Shown: positions 21,173 through 32,485 of the stretch, one piece after another
How the letters are laid out: every line of letters begins with the position of its first letter
Numbering within the stretch: the stretch's first letter is position 1
Source: a bacterium
GTDB taxonomy: Bacteria > Fibrobacterota > Fibrobacteria > UBA11236
Length of the DNA: 64,000 nt
Direction: 5' to 3'
Assembly (NCBI GenBank): GCA_900299345.1
Contig: OMJM01000044.1
Location: 62,001-126,000 of the forward strand
Program-made: the position numbers and the translations under genes
The notes under the pieces: generated by a model
What the model saw: only the letters and a program-made list of their open reading frames with translations
The model's database searches: none
Told to the model about the DNA's origin: nothing

Positions 21173-21958
21173 TTATTGCCAGTCCTTGCGCGCGAGCTTG
21201 CGAAGGAACAAGAGCAAGGGGGCGAGGATCCACGCCGACAATGCCCCCAGAGAAATCCAGGTGCCGGAACGTGTGCCGAAGAATTTTTGAAAGGCCGCCC
21301 CGGTGTACCCGAGCAACGCCGAGGTATCCAAGTGCATCAACACTAACACCCTTTCCAGATCGACGGGATTCAGAAGCATCGCTGCCAGCACTCCGGTTTC
21401 GAGCGGATAATCCGAGAAGCGCATCACCAGTCCCATCACCAGCGCATCGTAGCCGAACACCAGCGCAATCCAGATCAACAGGCTGGTGGAAAATCCGCGC
21501 AGGCGATCCTCGATGGACACCGCGATCCAGAACGCCAGCGCCAGAAACGCGAGATGCAGAAGCAATCCGCCACCGACAAATACCGCGAGCAATCCGATGT
21601 CCCCATTTGTTGAAAATCCGTAAGCCGCCATGGGAATGCCGGCGGCCAGTACAAATGCCAGTCCCAACGCGGAGCTCAACGCGAAGTATTGGCCGAGGCA
21701 TAATGGCGCACGGCCGATGGGTTGCGCGAACATCAATTCGTGGAACCCGCGAGATTGATAGAAGTACAGTGTTCCAAATACCAGGCAACACAAGGGCACG
21801 AGCAAGGTCACCGCACTGAGCAAGGCTCCAAAAGCCGCCGAAGCGCTGGGAGCGAAACGGAAAATTCCGAGCGAACCCAGCATGAAGAAGCCGAAATAGG
21901 CGAGCACAAAACGGCTGCGCAACAAATCCCAGAAGCAATAGCGAAAGATCCGCCCCAT
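21173..21958 (-). CDS. nosY: NosY-like ABC transporter permease
   Basis: NosY is the membrane part of the NosDFY complex that matures the CuZ centre of N2O reductase. The 261-residue product has about six hydrophobic helices and the ABC-2 style LYFYQSRGFHELMFAQP segment near 75-90. ATG 21958 starts one base after the nosF stop, so the genes are coupled; upstream in-frame sequence lies in nosF. It is the last gene of the nos operon. Length is close to the usual 270-280. Confidence 0.85.
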   Translation of the reverse strand: MGRIFRYCFWDLLRSRFVLAYFGFFMLGSLGIFRFAPSASAAFGALLSAVTLLVPLCCLVFGTLYFYQSRGFHELMFAQPIGRAPLCLGQYFALSSALGLAFVLAAGIPMAAYGFSTNGDIGLLAVFVGGGLLLHLAFLALAFWIAVSIEDRLRGFSTSLLIWIALVFGYDALVMGLVMRFSDYPLETGVLAAMLLNPVDLERVLVLMHLDTSALLGYTGAAFQKFFGTRSGTWISLGALSAWILAPLLLFLRKLARKDWQ

Positions 21959-21959
21959 A

Positions 21960-22688
21960 TCATCCTGCCTTGGGTGCCGACTCTTCGAGACACACGGCGA
22001 CCGCCTGCTCAAAGGCGTTGCGATGCGGAGAACCCGCCAGTTCCAGCATGAGTTCCTTGGACACGCGATGCGCTTTTCCATTTCGCAGGAACACGAGATA
22101 GTCCGCGATTTCCCGAATGTCTTCAAGAAGATGCGTGCTGATCAGTAGCGTTTTTCCCCGTTCTTTTTCAGCCATGGCCAATTCCATGAACCGGAGCCGC
22201 GAGGCTGGATCCAGACTGGCGGTGGGTTCGTCCAGAATCAGCAGGGAAGGGTTGAACGCCATGGCGAGAAACGCGTTGACCCGCTGTTTCATTCCCCCGG
22301 ACAGTGTTTTCCAACGCTGACTAAGACAGGCTTCGACCTGCAAGGCTGCGCAACGGGTGAAATCCGGTGCAACGCCGCGCGTTCGGGAAACCAGTTGGAG
22401 AATTTCATGCACGGTGAGATTCTCGGGAAAGCTGGGATGTTGCGGCATGTAACCCAGATGACGGCGATAGGAGGGAGCAGCGAACACATCCTCTCCGAAC
22501 ACGCGCAAGGTTCCGGATTCAGGCACGTTCAATCCGAGGATGCAACGGATCAAGGTGGATTTTCCGCTGCCATTGGAACCCAGCACCGCGGTCACGGTAC
22601 CCGCCTCGCAATGCAGATCGATTCCGCGCAAGACGGCTTTGCGTCCGTAGGACTTACGCAATCCTTCGATGCGGATGGGCAAGGTCAT
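21960..22688 (-). CDS. nosF: NosF-like ABC transporter ATP-binding protein
   Basis: The 242-residue cytoplasmic ATPase partners NosY and NosD in NosZ maturation. Motifs: Walker A LGSNGSGKST near 36-45, signature LSGGMKQRVN near 125, Walker B LLILDEPTASLD near 148-159, and an H-loop STHLLEDI. Order, overlap (4 bp with nosD) and size all fit NosF. It could serve a general ABC-2 exporter, but the position between nosD and nosY makes NosF the clear reading. Confidence 0.92.
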   Translation of the reverse strand: MTLPIRIEGLRKSYGRKAVLRGIDLHCEAGTVTAVLGSNGSGKSTLIRCILGLNVPESGTLRVFGEDVFAAPSYRRHLGYMPQHPSFPENLTVHEILQLVSRTRGVAPDFTRCAALQVEACLSQRWKTLSGGMKQRVNAFLAMAFNPSLLILDEPTASLDPASRLRFMELAMAEKERGKTLLISTHLLEDIREIADYLVFLRNGKAHRVSKELMLELAGSPHRNAFEQAVAVCLEESAPKAG

Positions 22689-23935
22689 GAGTCCTTCCTC
22701 GGTGGGAACAACGGCGAATCATCTTCGAGGCTTCTCGGTGCGAGCGCGGGAAATTGTTTTTCGATTAGATTCAGCAGGGTCAGAAAGTGTCCGCGCATCA
22801 GAATGAGGGCTTCGGGATAGCGGTCCATGAGCACGGATTGCAATTCCACGGGCCGGTAGGGAACATCGCCCAATCCATCGCGGTTCAGATCGTATCCCCG
22901 ATATTTATCCCATGAATTTCGATGAAAGGCGTTGGAGTTGTGTGCGGACGAATTGTAGGACACATCGAAGGTGTTCCCGGAAAAACGGTTGTTTTCATAA
23001 ACGTTGTCGTCGCAGTTCGCGACCATCTTGAGCGCCCAACCATTGCGGACAAAGGCGTTTTCTTCAAACTGGACGCGCGACAAACCCTCCTGAAAAACGC
23101 CCACGGTGTTTTCCACGAAGATGTTGCCGCGAACCTTGCTGTCCTCGATCCCCTTGCACAACAGGCCGTAGGCGGCGCTGCCCCAGTTATGCTCGAAGCG
23201 GTTGTCTTCCATGCGCACGTCGTTGGAATACATCACCGCCACGCCGGAGCCGTTGTTTCGAAAGGTGTTTTCCGCATACCGGCTGCCGTTGCTGAACATG
23301 AAGTGCAGTCCATAGCGGATGTTTTTTTCGGCGAGATTTCCCGTGACCGTGGAGTGACCCGTGAATTCCAGGTAAATGCCGTCGCGATGGCCCCGGGCTT
23401 TGTTGTTCTTCACGGTCATGCTGTCGCATTGCCAGAGGTGGACGCCGTTGCCGTTGGCGACCTCGTTGTTGTACCGGCCGGTGATGTCGTTGTTGTCGAT
23501 GCGGGTGTTGCGGGAGCGTGAACCGTAGATCGAAAAAAAATTGTGCACGAAGCGGTTGGAGTCGATGCGGGCGCCGCGTGTTCCCGTCATGTTGACGGCG
23601 GCCTGATCCTTGAGATAGCTGACGCCCACATTTTTGAAGACAAAACCTGTGATCCGCACGTTGTCGGCCGTGATGTTCAACAAAGCTCCCAAACCTCTTG
23701 CATCAAGGGCGGGCCATCCCATTCCTCGCAAAGTCATCGGTTTGTTCACCACAAGCCCTGTTTCGGGATAGACTCCGGGGTGGACGACTAACACCGCGTT
23801 TGAATCCGCAATGGCCAATGCTTCGCGCAACGTTTTGAAAGGTCGATTCCATCCGATATCAAAGCGCTTCGAAGCCGACCTGCCGTGTCCAAAGCCTGCA
23901 ATGATACCGACAAGAAAAAGCATTCGCAAGCGCAT
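22685..23935 (-). CDS. nosD: NosD-like periplasmic copper-site maturation protein
   Basis: NosD is a periplasmic right-handed beta-helix (CASH domain) protein needed for CuZ assembly in N2O reductase. The 416-residue product has a signal peptide (residues 1 to about 20) and stacked repeats of Asn-rich turns such as NNDITGRYNNE, VKNNKARGHRDGIYLEFTG, YAENTFRNNGSG and MEDNRFEHNWG. Start: ATG 23935, nine bases after the preceding stop; a TTG at 23944 is the alternative. It overlaps nosF by ATGA. Length is typical. Confidence 0.92.
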   Translation of the reverse strand: MRLRMLFLVGIIAGFGHGRSASKRFDIGWNRPFKTLREALAIADSNAVLVVHPGVYPETGLVVNKPMTLRGMGWPALDARGLGALLNITADNVRITGFVFKNVGVSYLKDQAAVNMTGTRGARIDSNRFVHNFFSIYGSRSRNTRIDNNDITGRYNNEVANGNGVHLWQCDSMTVKNNKARGHRDGIYLEFTGHSTVTGNLAEKNIRYGLHFMFSNGSRYAENTFRNNGSGVAVMYSNDVRMEDNRFEHNWGSAAYGLLCKGIEDSKVRGNIFVENTVGVFQEGLSRVQFEENAFVRNGWALKMVANCDDNVYENNRFSGNTFDVSYNSSAHNSNAFHRNSWDKYRGYDLNRDGLGDVPYRPVELQSVLMDRYPEALILMRGHFLTLLNLIEKQFPALAPRSLEDDSPLFPPRKDS

Positions 23936-23944
23936 GGTTGCCAA

Positions 23945-25003
23945 TCAGGATTTGAGCAAGTCGTTGAACGAGACGAACTCACCGCCGATACGCGCCTGGC
24001 AGGCCTTGGCTGAATCCATTCCCGCAAAAGCCGCCAGTCCCGCGCCCATTGGGCTTTGCAGGCCTTTGGCGCGCAGATAAATCGCGGATTCAGCAGGACC
24101 GAGGGTGCCAGGGCGGCTGAAATCAACGACGTAAATCCGATCTCCTTCCCGGCCTTCCTGTCGCAGACTTTCCAGCAGGCATTCAATGGAGTCGAACTTG
24201 TAAACTTTTCCCTTGGCCGTGATGCGTTCCGCCCCGAAACTTTTCTGTGCCAGCTTCATCTGGCAGAAGTGACAGGAGTCCGTTCCATATTGGAGTGGAA
24301 CAGGTCCGCTGCTGCAACCCATCAGAACGGCAATCAACAAACCCAGCCCATGGCGTAAGGGCGGACGGCCGTCCGCCCCAACTCTGCGCGGCCACACGAT
24401 CCAAAGCGCCAGAAACATCAGGAGGCCGCTGCCGAACATCATCCATCCCCCGAGGGCGGGCCACGACTGGGAGGTGAAGTTGAGCAGTTTGGCGGTGCCG
24501 ATGAGCGGCGGTTGGTAGGTCATTCCGGGAATGTTGATTGCCGCATGCGGATCGAGGTGGTGGCCGTAGTCGTATTCCCAACGCCAGAAGTCCCACATTC
24601 CCAAACCTCCGGCGCCCGCATAGCCTACGAGTAAAATCCCGATCAGCCAAAACGTGGGCCACAAGGCGATTGCGGCGCTCAGTCCCGCGAACAGCAGCAT
24701 CAATTTTGGAATGAAGCGAAGCTCGGGGATGTCCTCAGGGACAATTTTTTTCATCCCGATGTAATGGTTCAATCCGTTGATGATGTCCAAATCATTCGGG
24801 CTCTGTCCTTTGATTCCGTTGGGCCAGATGTACATCCCAAGCCCTTCGGGATATTGGGGTGCGCCGAGCTTGATGTGCCACATGGGAAACAAAAGGGACG
24901 CGCCGAGCAATGCCGCCGCGCCCAGAAGCAAGAGGGAGGCCACGCGCTTTCCACTGCGGGTTTTTGCTTTACGTTCCCCGTCCCGCAATGGAATTAGAAT
25001 CAT
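23945..25003 (-). CDS. NosB-like membrane protein fused to the NosL copper chaperone
   Basis: The 352-residue protein has two parts. Residues 1-205 form a membrane protein with about four helices (22-41, 101-113, 116-135, 187-204) and a conserved-looking loop (PNGIKGQSPNDLDIINGLNH); this is the kind of protein (NosB) found directly downstream of clade II nosZ. Residues 220-352 are NosL: a hydrophobic stretch with a lipobox-like AVLMGC (C230), the metal site CHFCQM at 244-249 and GKVYKFDSIECL. NosL delivers copper to NosZ. The junction (209-215, GADGRPP) is encoded by a perfect 20-bp palindrome. Whether C230 is processed in the fusion is unknown. Confidence 0.85.
   Translation of the reverse strand: MILIPLRDGERKAKTRSGKRVASLLLLGAAALLGASLLFPMWHIKLGAPQYPEGLGMYIWPNGIKGQSPNDLDIINGLNHYIGMKKIVPEDIPELRFIPKLMLLFAGLSAAIALWPTFWLIGILLVGYAGAGGLGMWDFWRWEYDYGHHLDPHAAINIPGMTYQPPLIGTAKLLNFTSQSWPALGGWMMFGSGLLMFLALWIVWPRRVGADGRPPLRHGLGLLIAVLMGCSSGPVPLQYGTDSCHFCQMKLAQKSFGAERITAKGKVYKFDSIECLLESLRQEGREGDRIYVVDFSRPGTLGPAESAIYLRAKGLQSPMGAGLAAFAGMDSAKACQARIGGEFVSFNDLLKS
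24359..24378. repeat. Perfect 20-bp GC palindrome inside the nosB-nosL fusion
   Basis: GGGCGGACGG is followed directly by its reverse complement CCGTCCGCCC, flanked by TAA and CAAC. It lies exactly at the junction of the membrane part and the NosL part and reads through in frame as GADGRPP. It resembles dispersed extragenic palindromes, though I saw no second copy in this window. Confidence 0.6.
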
Positions 25004-25027: not shown

Positions 25028-26965
25028 TTAAAGCGTGTTGGTGCCGAATGCGAAGGGAATCTTCTCCCCGGGCGCGGACACGCGCACATATCCCTGCATC
25101 TCCTGATGAAGCGCGGAACAGAAATCCGTGCAGTACATGGGCATCACGCCGATGCGGTTGGCAATCCACTTGAGCGTGCGCGTTTGACCCGGCATCACCA
25201 GAAGTTCGGCGTTGTTGTTTCCGATTATCGCGAAGCCGTGCGGCGTGTCCCAATCCTGCTCGAGGTTGGTGACATGGAAATACACCGTGTCTCCCAACTG
25301 AACACCTTCAATGTTGTCCGGCGAGAGATGGCTGCGGATTGTGGTCATGTAAATATCCACACGTTTGCCCTTGCGGTCGATGCGGGTTTCCTTTTCGCTC
25401 TTGATGGCGTAGGGGCTCTGATTGTCCGCAAGCTTGTAGATCTTCACGCTCTGAGCCATGATTTTTTCCGCGGGCATGGCTTGGGCGTAGTGCGGTTCAC
25501 CGTGCGTGGGGAAGTCCAGCAACATCTTCATCTTGGGGCCGCTAATGTCGATCAACTGGGCGGATTGCGCGAGTTCCGGTCCGGTGGGCAGGTAGCGATC
25601 CTTGGTAATTTTGTTGAGCGCGATGACGTACTTGCCATAGGGCTTCTTGGTGTCGCCCATGGGAACCATGAGATGGCCGATGGAGTAATAGGCCGGGATC
25701 CGATCCACGATTTCCCAGGTGCCCAGTTTCCATTTCACAATCTCGGAGCTGATGAAGAACGAGGTATAGGCGTAACCTTTGCCGTCGAATTCCGTGTGAA
25801 GAGGTCCGAGGCCCGGCTTCTGCACTTCGCCTGCAATCACCTGATCGTACTTGATGACCGGGATGCCCTCGACTTCGCCGTCGAATGCCTTGTTTTCAAT
25901 GGCTTTCGCCATCTTGGAGAAGCTGTGCACCGGAATCACCGAGGCGAGCTTGCCTCCGGCCACGATGTATTCACCGGTGGGATCTACGTCCACGCCATGC
26001 GGGGATTTGGGAGTGGGTAGATAATAAACCACTCCCGGACACTCGCTGGGGATGAGGAGTTTGACTTTCTTGCGTACATCGCTGGTGGCGGTCTGCGTCT
26101 TTTCATCGAGGTAATTGTCGTAGTGCAGGCCGTCCACTTCGTGTGCCTTGCCCGCCGCGACGTATTCCTCGGCTTTCTTCCAGTTGATGGCCACGATGAA
26201 GTCCTTGTCCTTCTGCGAGGAGTTGACTTCCTTCAGCGTGTGCGCCTGCTCGACGTTGTAAGAGGACATGAAGGCCCAGTCCTTCGAAGGACCTTTGCCG
26301 CAATGCGCCTTGTCATAGTCAAAGCCGGGTAGCAGGACCTGGAAGGCGACGGCCATGCGGCCGGTGTTCTTGTCCAGGGAGACGAAGCTTTGCAGGCCTT
26401 TGAACTTCTGCGCGAAATCCTTGATGGCCACGCTGGCCTGCGGGTAGGGAACTGAGAAGCGCGTTCCGGCGACCAGATATTCGGTATTTTCGGTGACAAA
26501 GGGAGAGCTGTGATTGCCACCGCTGTTGGGAATCTCGATGGTCTCCACGGTTTCAAAGGTTTTAAGGTCAACCCGGGCAATGCGCGGCGTATTGTTGCCG
26601 TTGATGAACACATAGCGTCCATCCGCTTCGCCGTTGGTTTGGGATAACTGGGGATGGTGTGCATCGTCCCAGGGAATGAAACCGAAACTGGTGTTGAGTA
26701 GCGGTTTGGTTTCCTCGGAATAACCGTAACCGTTTTCAGGATTCTGGGAAAACACCGGGATCACCTTGAGCAGTCTGCCCGAGGGAATACCGACCACGGA
26801 AAGCTGGCCGCTGAAGCCCCCGGAGAAAAATCCGTACAGCTCGTCGTATTTTCCGGGCGCGACGTAAACCTTTTGCGCTGCGTCATCCATTTGTTGTTGC
26901 TGGCAGCCTGTGAAGACGGCGGCGAGCGCCGCTCCGATCAGCCACGAATACTTGTTGTGTATCAT
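25028..26965 (-). CDS. nosZ: Nitrous oxide reductase, clade II Sec-dependent lipoprotein
   Basis: NosZ reduces N2O to N2 in the periplasm using the CuZ cluster and a CuA electron-entry site. The 645-residue product has a Sec lipoprotein signal (VFTGC, C21) rather than a twin-arginine signal, which marks clade II. The seven-bladed propeller carries the His ligands, for example DDAHHPQLS near 100 and NGNNTPRIARVD. The C-terminal cupredoxin has the CuA motif YCTDFCSALHQEM near 620. A good AAGGAG precedes ATG 26965. It is second in the operon, right after its cytochrome c. Confidence 0.97.
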   Translation of the reverse strand: MIHNKYSWLIGAALAAVFTGCQQQQMDDAAQKVYVAPGKYDELYGFFSGGFSGQLSVVGIPSGRLLKVIPVFSQNPENGYGYSEETKPLLNTSFGFIPWDDAHHPQLSQTNGEADGRYVFINGNNTPRIARVDLKTFETVETIEIPNSGGNHSSPFVTENTEYLVAGTRFSVPYPQASVAIKDFAQKFKGLQSFVSLDKNTGRMAVAFQVLLPGFDYDKAHCGKGPSKDWAFMSSYNVEQAHTLKEVNSSQKDKDFIVAINWKKAEEYVAAGKAHEVDGLHYDNYLDEKTQTATSDVRKKVKLLIPSECPGVVYYLPTPKSPHGVDVDPTGEYIVAGGKLASVIPVHSFSKMAKAIENKAFDGEVEGIPVIKYDQVIAGEVQKPGLGPLHTEFDGKGYAYTSFFISSEIVKWKLGTWEIVDRIPAYYSIGHLMVPMGDTKKPYGKYVIALNKITKDRYLPTGPELAQSAQLIDISGPKMKMLLDFPTHGEPHYAQAMPAEKIMAQSVKIYKLADNQSPYAIKSEKETRIDRKGKRVDIYMTTIRSHLSPDNIEGVQLGDTVYFHVTNLEQDWDTPHGFAIIGNNNAELLVMPGQTRTLKWIANRIGVMPMYCTDFCSALHQEMQGYVRVSAPGEKIPFAFGTNTL

Positions 26966-30222: not shown

Positions 30223-30383
30223 TGTCCGTGCTCTACATCCTGATACCGGTTTCCATCGCGTTGGCCGCCGGTTTTGTCCTCGTGTGTCTGGCCGCGATTC
30301 GCGGAGGTCAGTTCGACGATCTCGAAAGTCCGCGGTGGCGGGTGCTGTTTGACGAAAAAGTCCAAGGGAGAAAACAGAAATGA
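30222..30383 (+). CDS. ccoS: Cytochrome oxidase assembly protein CcoS
   Basis: This 53-residue gene begins [15 protein letters not shown], a single membrane helix, followed by the CcoS hallmark [18 protein letters not shown]. CcoS is needed to insert haem b and copper into cbb3 oxidase. The ATG overlaps the preceding stop (TGATG) and the stop overlaps the ccoN ATG (ATGA), so it is translationally coupled on both sides. Its place ahead of ccoNO, rather than after ccoI, is less common. Confidence 0.92.
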
Positions 30384-32485
30384 TCAAAGTCAAATACGAC
30401 GACGCCATCGTGAAAATGTTTCTCATCGCATCCCTGTTCTGGGGCGCGGCGGGAATGCTGGCGGGTCTGACGCTGGCGCTGCAACTGGCGGACTGGCACT
30501 TCAATTTCGGGTTGAAGTACATCAACTTCGGACGCCTGCGCCCGTTGCACACCAACGCGGTGATTTTCGCTTTTGCGGGGAACGCCATTTTTTGCGGTGT
30601 CTATTACTCCATGCAGCGCCTGCTCAAAACCCGGCTATACAGCGATCTGTTGTCCCGCCTTCATTTCTGGGGATGGCAGATCATCATCGCACTGGGTGGA
30701 ACGGGATTCCTCTTCGGCATCACGGCGGGTAAAGAATACGCCGAGCTGGAATGGCCCTTGGACGTTCTCGTCGCCGTGGTGTGGTTGGTTTTCGCGGCCA
30801 ATTTTTTCGGAACGCTGTTCCGGCGGCGCGAGAAACAGCTCTATGTCGCCATCTGGTTTTACATGGGAACGATCGTGACCATCACCGTGCTGCATGTGGT
30901 GAACTCCTTGGAGATACCCGTGTCGCTCACCAAGAGCTATCCCATTTATGCCGGTGTCCAGGACGCACTGGTGCAGTGGTGGTACGGCCACAACGCCGTG
31001 GGATTCTTTTTGACCACTCCCTTCCTCGGACTCATGTACTACTTCATGCCCAAGGCCGCCGAACGCCCGGTGTATTCCTACCGGCTTTCCATCATGCACT
31101 TCTGGGCGCTGGTGTTTCTCTACATCTGGGCGGGTCCGCACCATCTCCACTATACGGCGCTCCCGGACTGGGCGCAATCGCTTGGAATGGTTTTCTCGGT
31201 CATGCTGCTTGCGCCCTCATGGGGAGGCATGATTAACGGCTTGCTCACCTTGCGCGGCGCATGGGACAAACTGCGCATCGATCCCGTGCTCAAATTCTTT
31301 GCCGCCGCAGTGACGTTCTATGGCATGTCCACCTTCGAGGGTCCGCTCATGTCGATCAAGAGCGTAAACGCCCTGTCGCATTACACTGACTGGACCATCG
31401 GTCACGTGCACAACGGCGCGCTGGGATGGGTGGCGCTGCTCATCTTCGGCATGGCCTACTGGCTGGTTCCGCGCCTGTGGCGCACCAAGCTTTACAGTAT
31501 CGGCCTGGCCAATGCGCATTTCTGGCTGGCGATGGTGGGCATTCTCTTTTACATCGTCTCCATGTGGGCGGCGGGAATCACGCAGGGATTGATGTGGAAG
31601 GAATTCACGCCGGACGGCATGCTCGCCTATCCCAATTTCGTGGAGACGGTGACCAAGCTGATTCCGTTCTATTGGGGCCGTGCCCTGGGTGGTTCCCTCT
31701 TTCTCGCGGGCCTTGTGCTGATGTTGTTCAACCTGGTGAAAACGGCGGGTACCGGCAGTTTTGCCGACGAGGAAGTGACATTGCCGGATAATCAAGAGGA
31801 GACGCATAAGATCGCGCACTGGCATCAGATCGTGGAACGCAAACCTTTGCTGCTCGCCTTCCTGACCTTGGTGGTGATTTTGATCGGCGGACTGGTGGAA
31901 ATGGTGCCCACCTTCCTCATCCGCAGCAACATACCCACCATCGCCTCGGTCAAACCTTATACTCCGCTGGAGTTGGAAGGCCGCGACATCTATGTGCGGG
32001 AAGGTTGCTACACGTGCCATTCGCAAATGATCCGTCCCTTCCGCGACGAAGTGGAACGCTACGGAGACTATTCCAAGCCCGGGGAATTCGTGTATGATCA
32101 TCCCTTTCAGTGGGGCTCCAAGCGCACCGGGCCTGATCTGCAGCGCGTGGGCGGCAAGTACAGCAACTTGTGGCACGCCCGCCATCTGGACGATCCCCGA
32201 GTGACTTCGCCGGGATCGGTGATGCCCCCATATCACTTCCTGCTGGTCGAGAAACTCAACTTTGGTCATGTTGCCAGAAAAGTTCATGTCATGCGCAAAC
32301 TCGGTGTGCCCTATTCCAATGAAGAAGAACAGAACGCGGTTCAGATAGCGCGGGAACAGGCTCAAGGAATTGCGGACGATTTGCAAAAGGAAGGTCTGGA
32401 AAACATGGCCGACAAGGAAGTCGTGGCCTTGATCTCCTACCTGCAGCGTTTGGGAACGGATATCAAAAAAGGAGGCGCACAATGA
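30380..32485 (+). CDS. ccoNO: cbb3-type cytochrome c oxidase, fused subunits I and II (CcoN-CcoO)
   Basis: This is the catalytic core of a high-affinity, proton-pumping haem-copper oxidase. Residues 1 to about 470 are CcoN with 12 helices; ligands include H57 in [10 protein letters not shown], the CuB region [12 protein letters not shown], the tandem His in AGPHHLHYT, and the haem pair in [12 protein letters not shown]. Residues about 485-701 are CcoO: a helix, then [22 protein letters not shown] with haem c at about 543-547 and the Met ligand in SVMPPYHFL. The fusion is known in Bacteroidota and some other phyla. It overlaps ccoQ by 4 bp. Confidence 0.96.

Follow-up and report, generated by a model that had tools for sequence, protein, structure and literature searches.

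Did the perfect palindrome that lies at the joint of a fused nosB-nosL gene bring about the fusion, and is the NosL half of the fused product still handled as a lipoprotein? The gene in question lies in a window of 64,000 nucleotides, by which we mean the whole stretch of Fibrobacterota DNA that was analysed, and consists of a single frame of 352 codons (nosB-L, 23945–25003, minus strand) that starts with ATG and is open throughout. Residues 241–349 match the Pfam NosL family (PF05573, 46.3 bits at a cut-off of 24), and the NosL domain, at 23957–24283 (minus strand), carries its CxxCxM motif at 24257–24274. The NosB part (24383–25003, minus strand) comprises residues 1–207, with the Arg pair R206-R207 at its end. 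A Pfam search with this N-terminal part gave no match; it was recognised by hydropathy, with four hydrophobic segments near residues 21–39, 97–115, 118–136 and 185–203, by its alignment with the standalone NosB of split relatives, and by the NosB signature LNHYIGM (PMC9697520), which is found within it. The open frame, the PF05573 match, the NosB motif and the alignment thus bear out the proposal of the first-pass annotation that NosB and NosL share one frame, and the NosB tree places the gene with other fusions (see below).

The gene belongs to a clade II nos cluster, with nosZ on one side and nosD on the other; all cluster genes listed here lie on the minus strand. By family match, nosZ (25028–26965) encodes a clade II, Sec-dependent nitrous-oxide reductase (TIGR04246), nosD (22685–23944) belongs to TIGR04247, and a nosF-like ABC ATPase (21960–22688) occupies the nosF place. 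The nosY place is taken by a membrane protein gene (21173–22126) that is probably nosY, an assignment made from position only, without a family match. Adjoining the cluster is a gene for an NnrS-family membrane protein (PF05940, 27666–28844). Elsewhere in the window, the cbb3 oxidase subunits CcoN and CcoO are apparently joined in a single frame of 701 aa (30380–32485), as judged by sequence.

The window gene encodes a NosB-L fusion of a kind already known from clade II nos clusters and previously reported in Dyadobacter and Flavobacterium (PMC9697520). As in those genera, NosB precedes NosL in one frame, the gene lies between nosZ and nosD, and LNHYIGM is present; the window gene differs from the published proteins in the palindromic element in its linker and in a second NosB motif, which reads YGHH instead of YGHN. 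A protein search of 168 Fibrobacterota genomes gave six homologues, including the window protein, and all six were fused in one frame. They form one clade in the NosB tree (support 99/95), and the fusion would have been inherited from an ancestor within Fibrobacterota. When the genome collection was scanned more broadly, 80 loci were recovered, with 18 distinct proteins (the window protein among them) fused without a stop. Most of the remaining loci had split nosB and nosL, and in several split relatives the two genes overlap by 4 bp or are separated by a single in-frame stop. Fusions were also found in Bacteroidota (with Kapabacteria), Gemmatimonadota, Zixibacteria and Bdellovibrionota, and the fused/split label requires nine changes on the NosB tree, at least five of which are forced by supported branches. 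The fused comparison set consists mostly of MAGs, and identity to the window protein drops to 35–50% in most fused proteins.

At the joint, residues 209–215 (GADGRPP) are encoded by GGGCGGACGGCCGTCCGCCC (24359–24378). The inverted symmetry of this stretch is exact, so that the perfect 20-bp palindrome claimed in the first-pass annotation is indeed there, and it forms the core of a 28-bp palindromic element (24355–24382; GTTGGGGCGGACGGCCGTCCGCCCTTAC in the coding direction) that encodes VGADGRPPL and the first base of R217 and that family comparison identifies as a type B copy. Could such a palindrome have arisen by chance where coding sequence is rich in GC? Short inverted repeats do arise in GC-rich linkers, for example the 8-bp arms found in one fused relative (G156), but for the window palindrome we find chance hardly credible. 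No other perfect palindrome in the window reaches 20 bp, and a first-order Markov model predicts 0.075 of such length per window; GGGCGGACGGCCGTCCGCCC has five exact copies in the 2.24-Mb genome, and 13 with at most two mismatches, while the reversed control has none; and in the sister species (G163) the same codons also hold a palindrome. Because the sister's palindrome comes from an independent assembly of the same fused gene, an assembly error at the joint is also unlikely. As a separate matter, a role of the palindrome as an mRNA hairpin in the window genome was considered and rejected, given that the window copy folds no better than shuffled sequences (z −0.13).

The element lies exactly at the joint both in the window genome and in its closest sister, and the first-pass annotation had proposed that the fusion arose when a mobile palindromic element inserted in frame and did away with the stop of nosB and the start of nosL. 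The part of this idea that holds is the existence of a dispersed family, probably mobile, some copies of which lie in frame within genes; the part that fails is the making of the fusion. Fused relatives without the element exist in the same genus and family, which is the very observation that the annotation itself had named as speaking against insertion. In G155, G156, G159 and G161, all within the 99/95 clade, no copy of the element is present at the joint, where the longest inverted repeats have 4–8 bp per arm and are unrelated to it in sequence. Since four of the six fused Fibrobacterota homologues lack it, and proteins of four other phyla are fused as well, the palindrome, by this comparison, did not create the NosB-NosL fusion and had no causal role in it. 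Moreover, the fusion clade predates the split of the window genome from G163, and to rescue creation by the element one would need traceless loss of the copy in every lineage, which makes it very improbable. A second fused gene points in the same direction. In the GlyRS alpha/beta fusion of the window genome (L147, 700-3300, G000 contig C55), a palindrome of the same family again lies at the joint, with alpha ending at residue 293, the element at 307 and beta starting at 329, yet the sister has the same alpha/beta fusion without a palindrome at the joint.

By our preferred reading, then, the element would have reached the nosB-L linker after the fusion already existed, at a tolerant site that could take a small number of added or changed residues in frame without harm, and the palindrome is probably without a role in NosL function. 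The linker of the window gene is no longer than that of relatives lacking the element, and a clean insertion is therefore not visible at this site. More generally, a conspicuous repeat found where two proteins are joined is not necessarily what joined them, as linkers are where such inserts are tolerated.

The fusion places the NosL signal inside a longer protein, and it had been suggested that NosL would consequently be anchored by a helix and not by a lipid. Our comparison does not support this. The NosL lipobox cysteine is C230 (LMGC230), and the internal lipoprotein signal, seen by hydropathy as an h-region with lipobox (24314–24346, minus strand; LGLLIAVLMG followed by C230), has a counterpart in all 18 distinct fused proteins, each of which keeps the h-region and a Cys preceded by G, A or S at position −1. 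Because the lipobox is intact throughout this set, we argue that lipidation of the internal signal persists, and that cleavage probably does too. Hydropathy and the positive-inside rule predict four membrane helices for NosB, with an N-in start and the C-terminus inside, and the Arg-rich linker RRVGADGRPPLRHG would be cytoplasmic. The h-region could then act as an internal lipoprotein signal that leads C230 to the outside, as a normal lipoprotein signal does, and NosL would most likely be exported and receive its lipid at C230, and would probably be released by cleavage. We infer membrane topology, lipidation and cleavage, like the mobility of the element, from sequence. An internal translation start giving a separate NosL was also considered and was rejected for this gene, since in-frame start codons around the joint are limited to TTGs that lie within the h-region and would leave no charged n-region. 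We suggest that NosB-L works as a maturation factor resembling a polyprotein, with a NosL half that is still handled as a lipoprotein. Overall, we consider it quite probable that the window gene is a known fusion to whose linker the element came later, without a causal role, and that NosL is most likely exported and lipidated at C230.

The element belongs to a family with the consensus GTAGGGGC-N12-GCCCCTAC. Allowing up to three mismatches, we found it at 29 places in the window genome and at 43 in the sister (control 8 and 6, respectively). Exact consensus matches occurred in 35 of the 168 genomes of the phylum, where the core often differed from genome to genome, and in three of 40 genomes of other phyla, the 40 being those reached through loci. 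A broad pattern, GGGCGRNC...GNYCGCCC, was abandoned as too loose, with control counts no lower than the real ones in genus g2, and a literature search with the string GTAGGGGC returned just unrelated sequences, such as primers. The copies fall into two sub-types. Type A is symmetric (GTAG...CTAC), and its pairing continues beyond the 28-mer, through outer arms that differ from locus to locus, with 97, 92, 90, 79, 77, 69 and 59% pairing at outer positions 1–7, compared with 25–40% for pairs of flanks taken from different loci. Type B has a core like GGACNGCCGTCC and mismatched ends without outer pairing; these ends, including those of the window copy, are GTTG, GTAA, GTAC and similar. Some contigs end within or beside a palindrome (L141, at the end of G000 contig C26, and G163:C9:1-28), and the elements may thus break assemblies. 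In a more distant member of the phylum, three identical palindromes, GTAGGGGCACGCCATGGCGTGCCCCTAC, form a local cluster within 1.4 kb (at 793, 1161 and 2200 of L259, G022:C42:5500-8500).

Many copies are in frame within conserved genes, among them those for GlyRS, 3HCDH-ECH, RecG, a class I aminoacyl-tRNA synthetase, TldD and GcpE, and further ones in those for RsmB, SMC, QueG, a UvrD/RecD-like helicase and penicillin amidase. Such in-gene copies frequently fall between Pfam domains and are usually read as VGAxxxx(S/P)PL; in RsmB, the copy of the sister adds nine residues relative to the window-genome ortholog. Other copies provide neighbouring genes with their TAG stop codon, and in one case (1558–1585 of L173, G163:C1:484800-490400) a single palindrome is the TAG stop for two convergent frames, one on each strand. 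In TldD, where the window genome has a type B palindrome, the sister linker VVGARHPSTGSGTMPV (L214) contains a different repeat-like stretch with CCCTTCGACAGGCTCAGGG.

Comparison of the two species showed that a site may hold a palindrome in both while its sequence differs. At the codons of the window palindrome, G163 nosB-L has GTAGGGGCGAGGCATGCCTCGCCCCTAC, which is part of a perfect 46-bp palindrome whose RNA is predicted to form a stem of 23–25 bp (−58 kcal/mol, z −9.9). The 28-bp register is the same in both species, with sub-type B in the window genome and A in the sister. Different palindromes were also found at matching sites in a glycosyltransferase gene (L160/L170) and at L144/L194, L145/L198 and L148/L166. 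A comparable case has been described in two Xanthomonas species, which carry different REPs at about the same recB site (PMC3733652).

One way to account for this pattern would be a single entry in the ancestor of the window genome and G163, after which the arms drifted and each change was copied to the other arm by hairpin template switching. Arm-to-arm conversion of this kind has been proposed for coding palindromes of nematomorph mitochondria (PMC6649704), and it agrees with the different perfect palindrome at the same codons and in the same register, with the like pattern at several other orthologous sites, and with type A outer arms that differ among loci while pairing well above control over seven positions. 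The combination of sub-types B and A at nos, however, fits replacement better than drift, and no intermediate states were seen, and we thus regard hairpin copying as possible but somewhat doubtful. Alternatively, permissive linkers or existing hairpins could be hot spots at which copies are repeatedly replaced or re-inserted, either by some enzyme or by ectopic conversion between copies. We take this to be a serious candidate, if a little short of an even chance. It is in line with the sub-type differences at matching places (nos, L161/L181 and L164/L187), with the genome-specific cores in other Fibrobacterota, which are expected of recent spread, and with the different repeat-like stretch in the sister TldD linker; against it, PF01797, the REP-type (RAYT) transposase, is absent from the four genomes of the genus; in the phylum, 80 of the 168 genomes have the family, and at none of the loci examined do these palindromes flank it. 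A bolder reading, which we hold to be possible but less likely than not, is that coding palindromes of these Fibrobacterota genomes persist at fixed linker sites while their sequence is rewritten between sisters, with hairpin copying or some enzyme renewing them and only GTAGGGGC staying constant. The sister comparison provides a set of matching sites for testing palindrome persistence in coding genes, with arm-to-arm copying set against replacement.

The element family is probably mobile, and a RAYT/Y1 transposase was sought as its mobiliser, but no mobilising enzyme was found in the genus or at the examined loci of the phylum. A partner transposon, as expected for a MITE, was likewise not found. 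In its behaviour, the element is like a GTAG REP. It is a palindrome in the 20–40 bp range with many dispersed copies and a GTAG-like end, some copies being intragenic and others serving as TAG stops, both of which have been described for GTAG REPs (PMC3733652). It differs from them in that symmetric type A copies pair GTAG with CTAC, so that neither these nor type B copies, with ends such as GTTG, GTAA and GTAC, have an unpaired GTAG at one end; in addition, the outer arms are locus-specific, and no RAYT gene flanked by the element was found. We do not claim GTAG-REP membership because PF01797 is absent from the genus and the examined loci are unflanked. The presence of palindromes in frame within a range of unrelated protein genes also recalls the Rickettsia palindromic elements (RPE), including the occurrence of orthologs that lack the insert (the nine residues of RsmB and the empty GlyRS joint of the sister), but the host is different and the unit here is short, and the likeness drawn is one of insertion pattern. 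Lastly, the coding palindromes of nematomorph mitochondria (PMC6649704) resemble those described here in being perfect palindromes in coding genes, both arms of which change together; there, however, the arms encode conserved protein regions, whereas here a fixed GTAGGGGC recurs in a linker.
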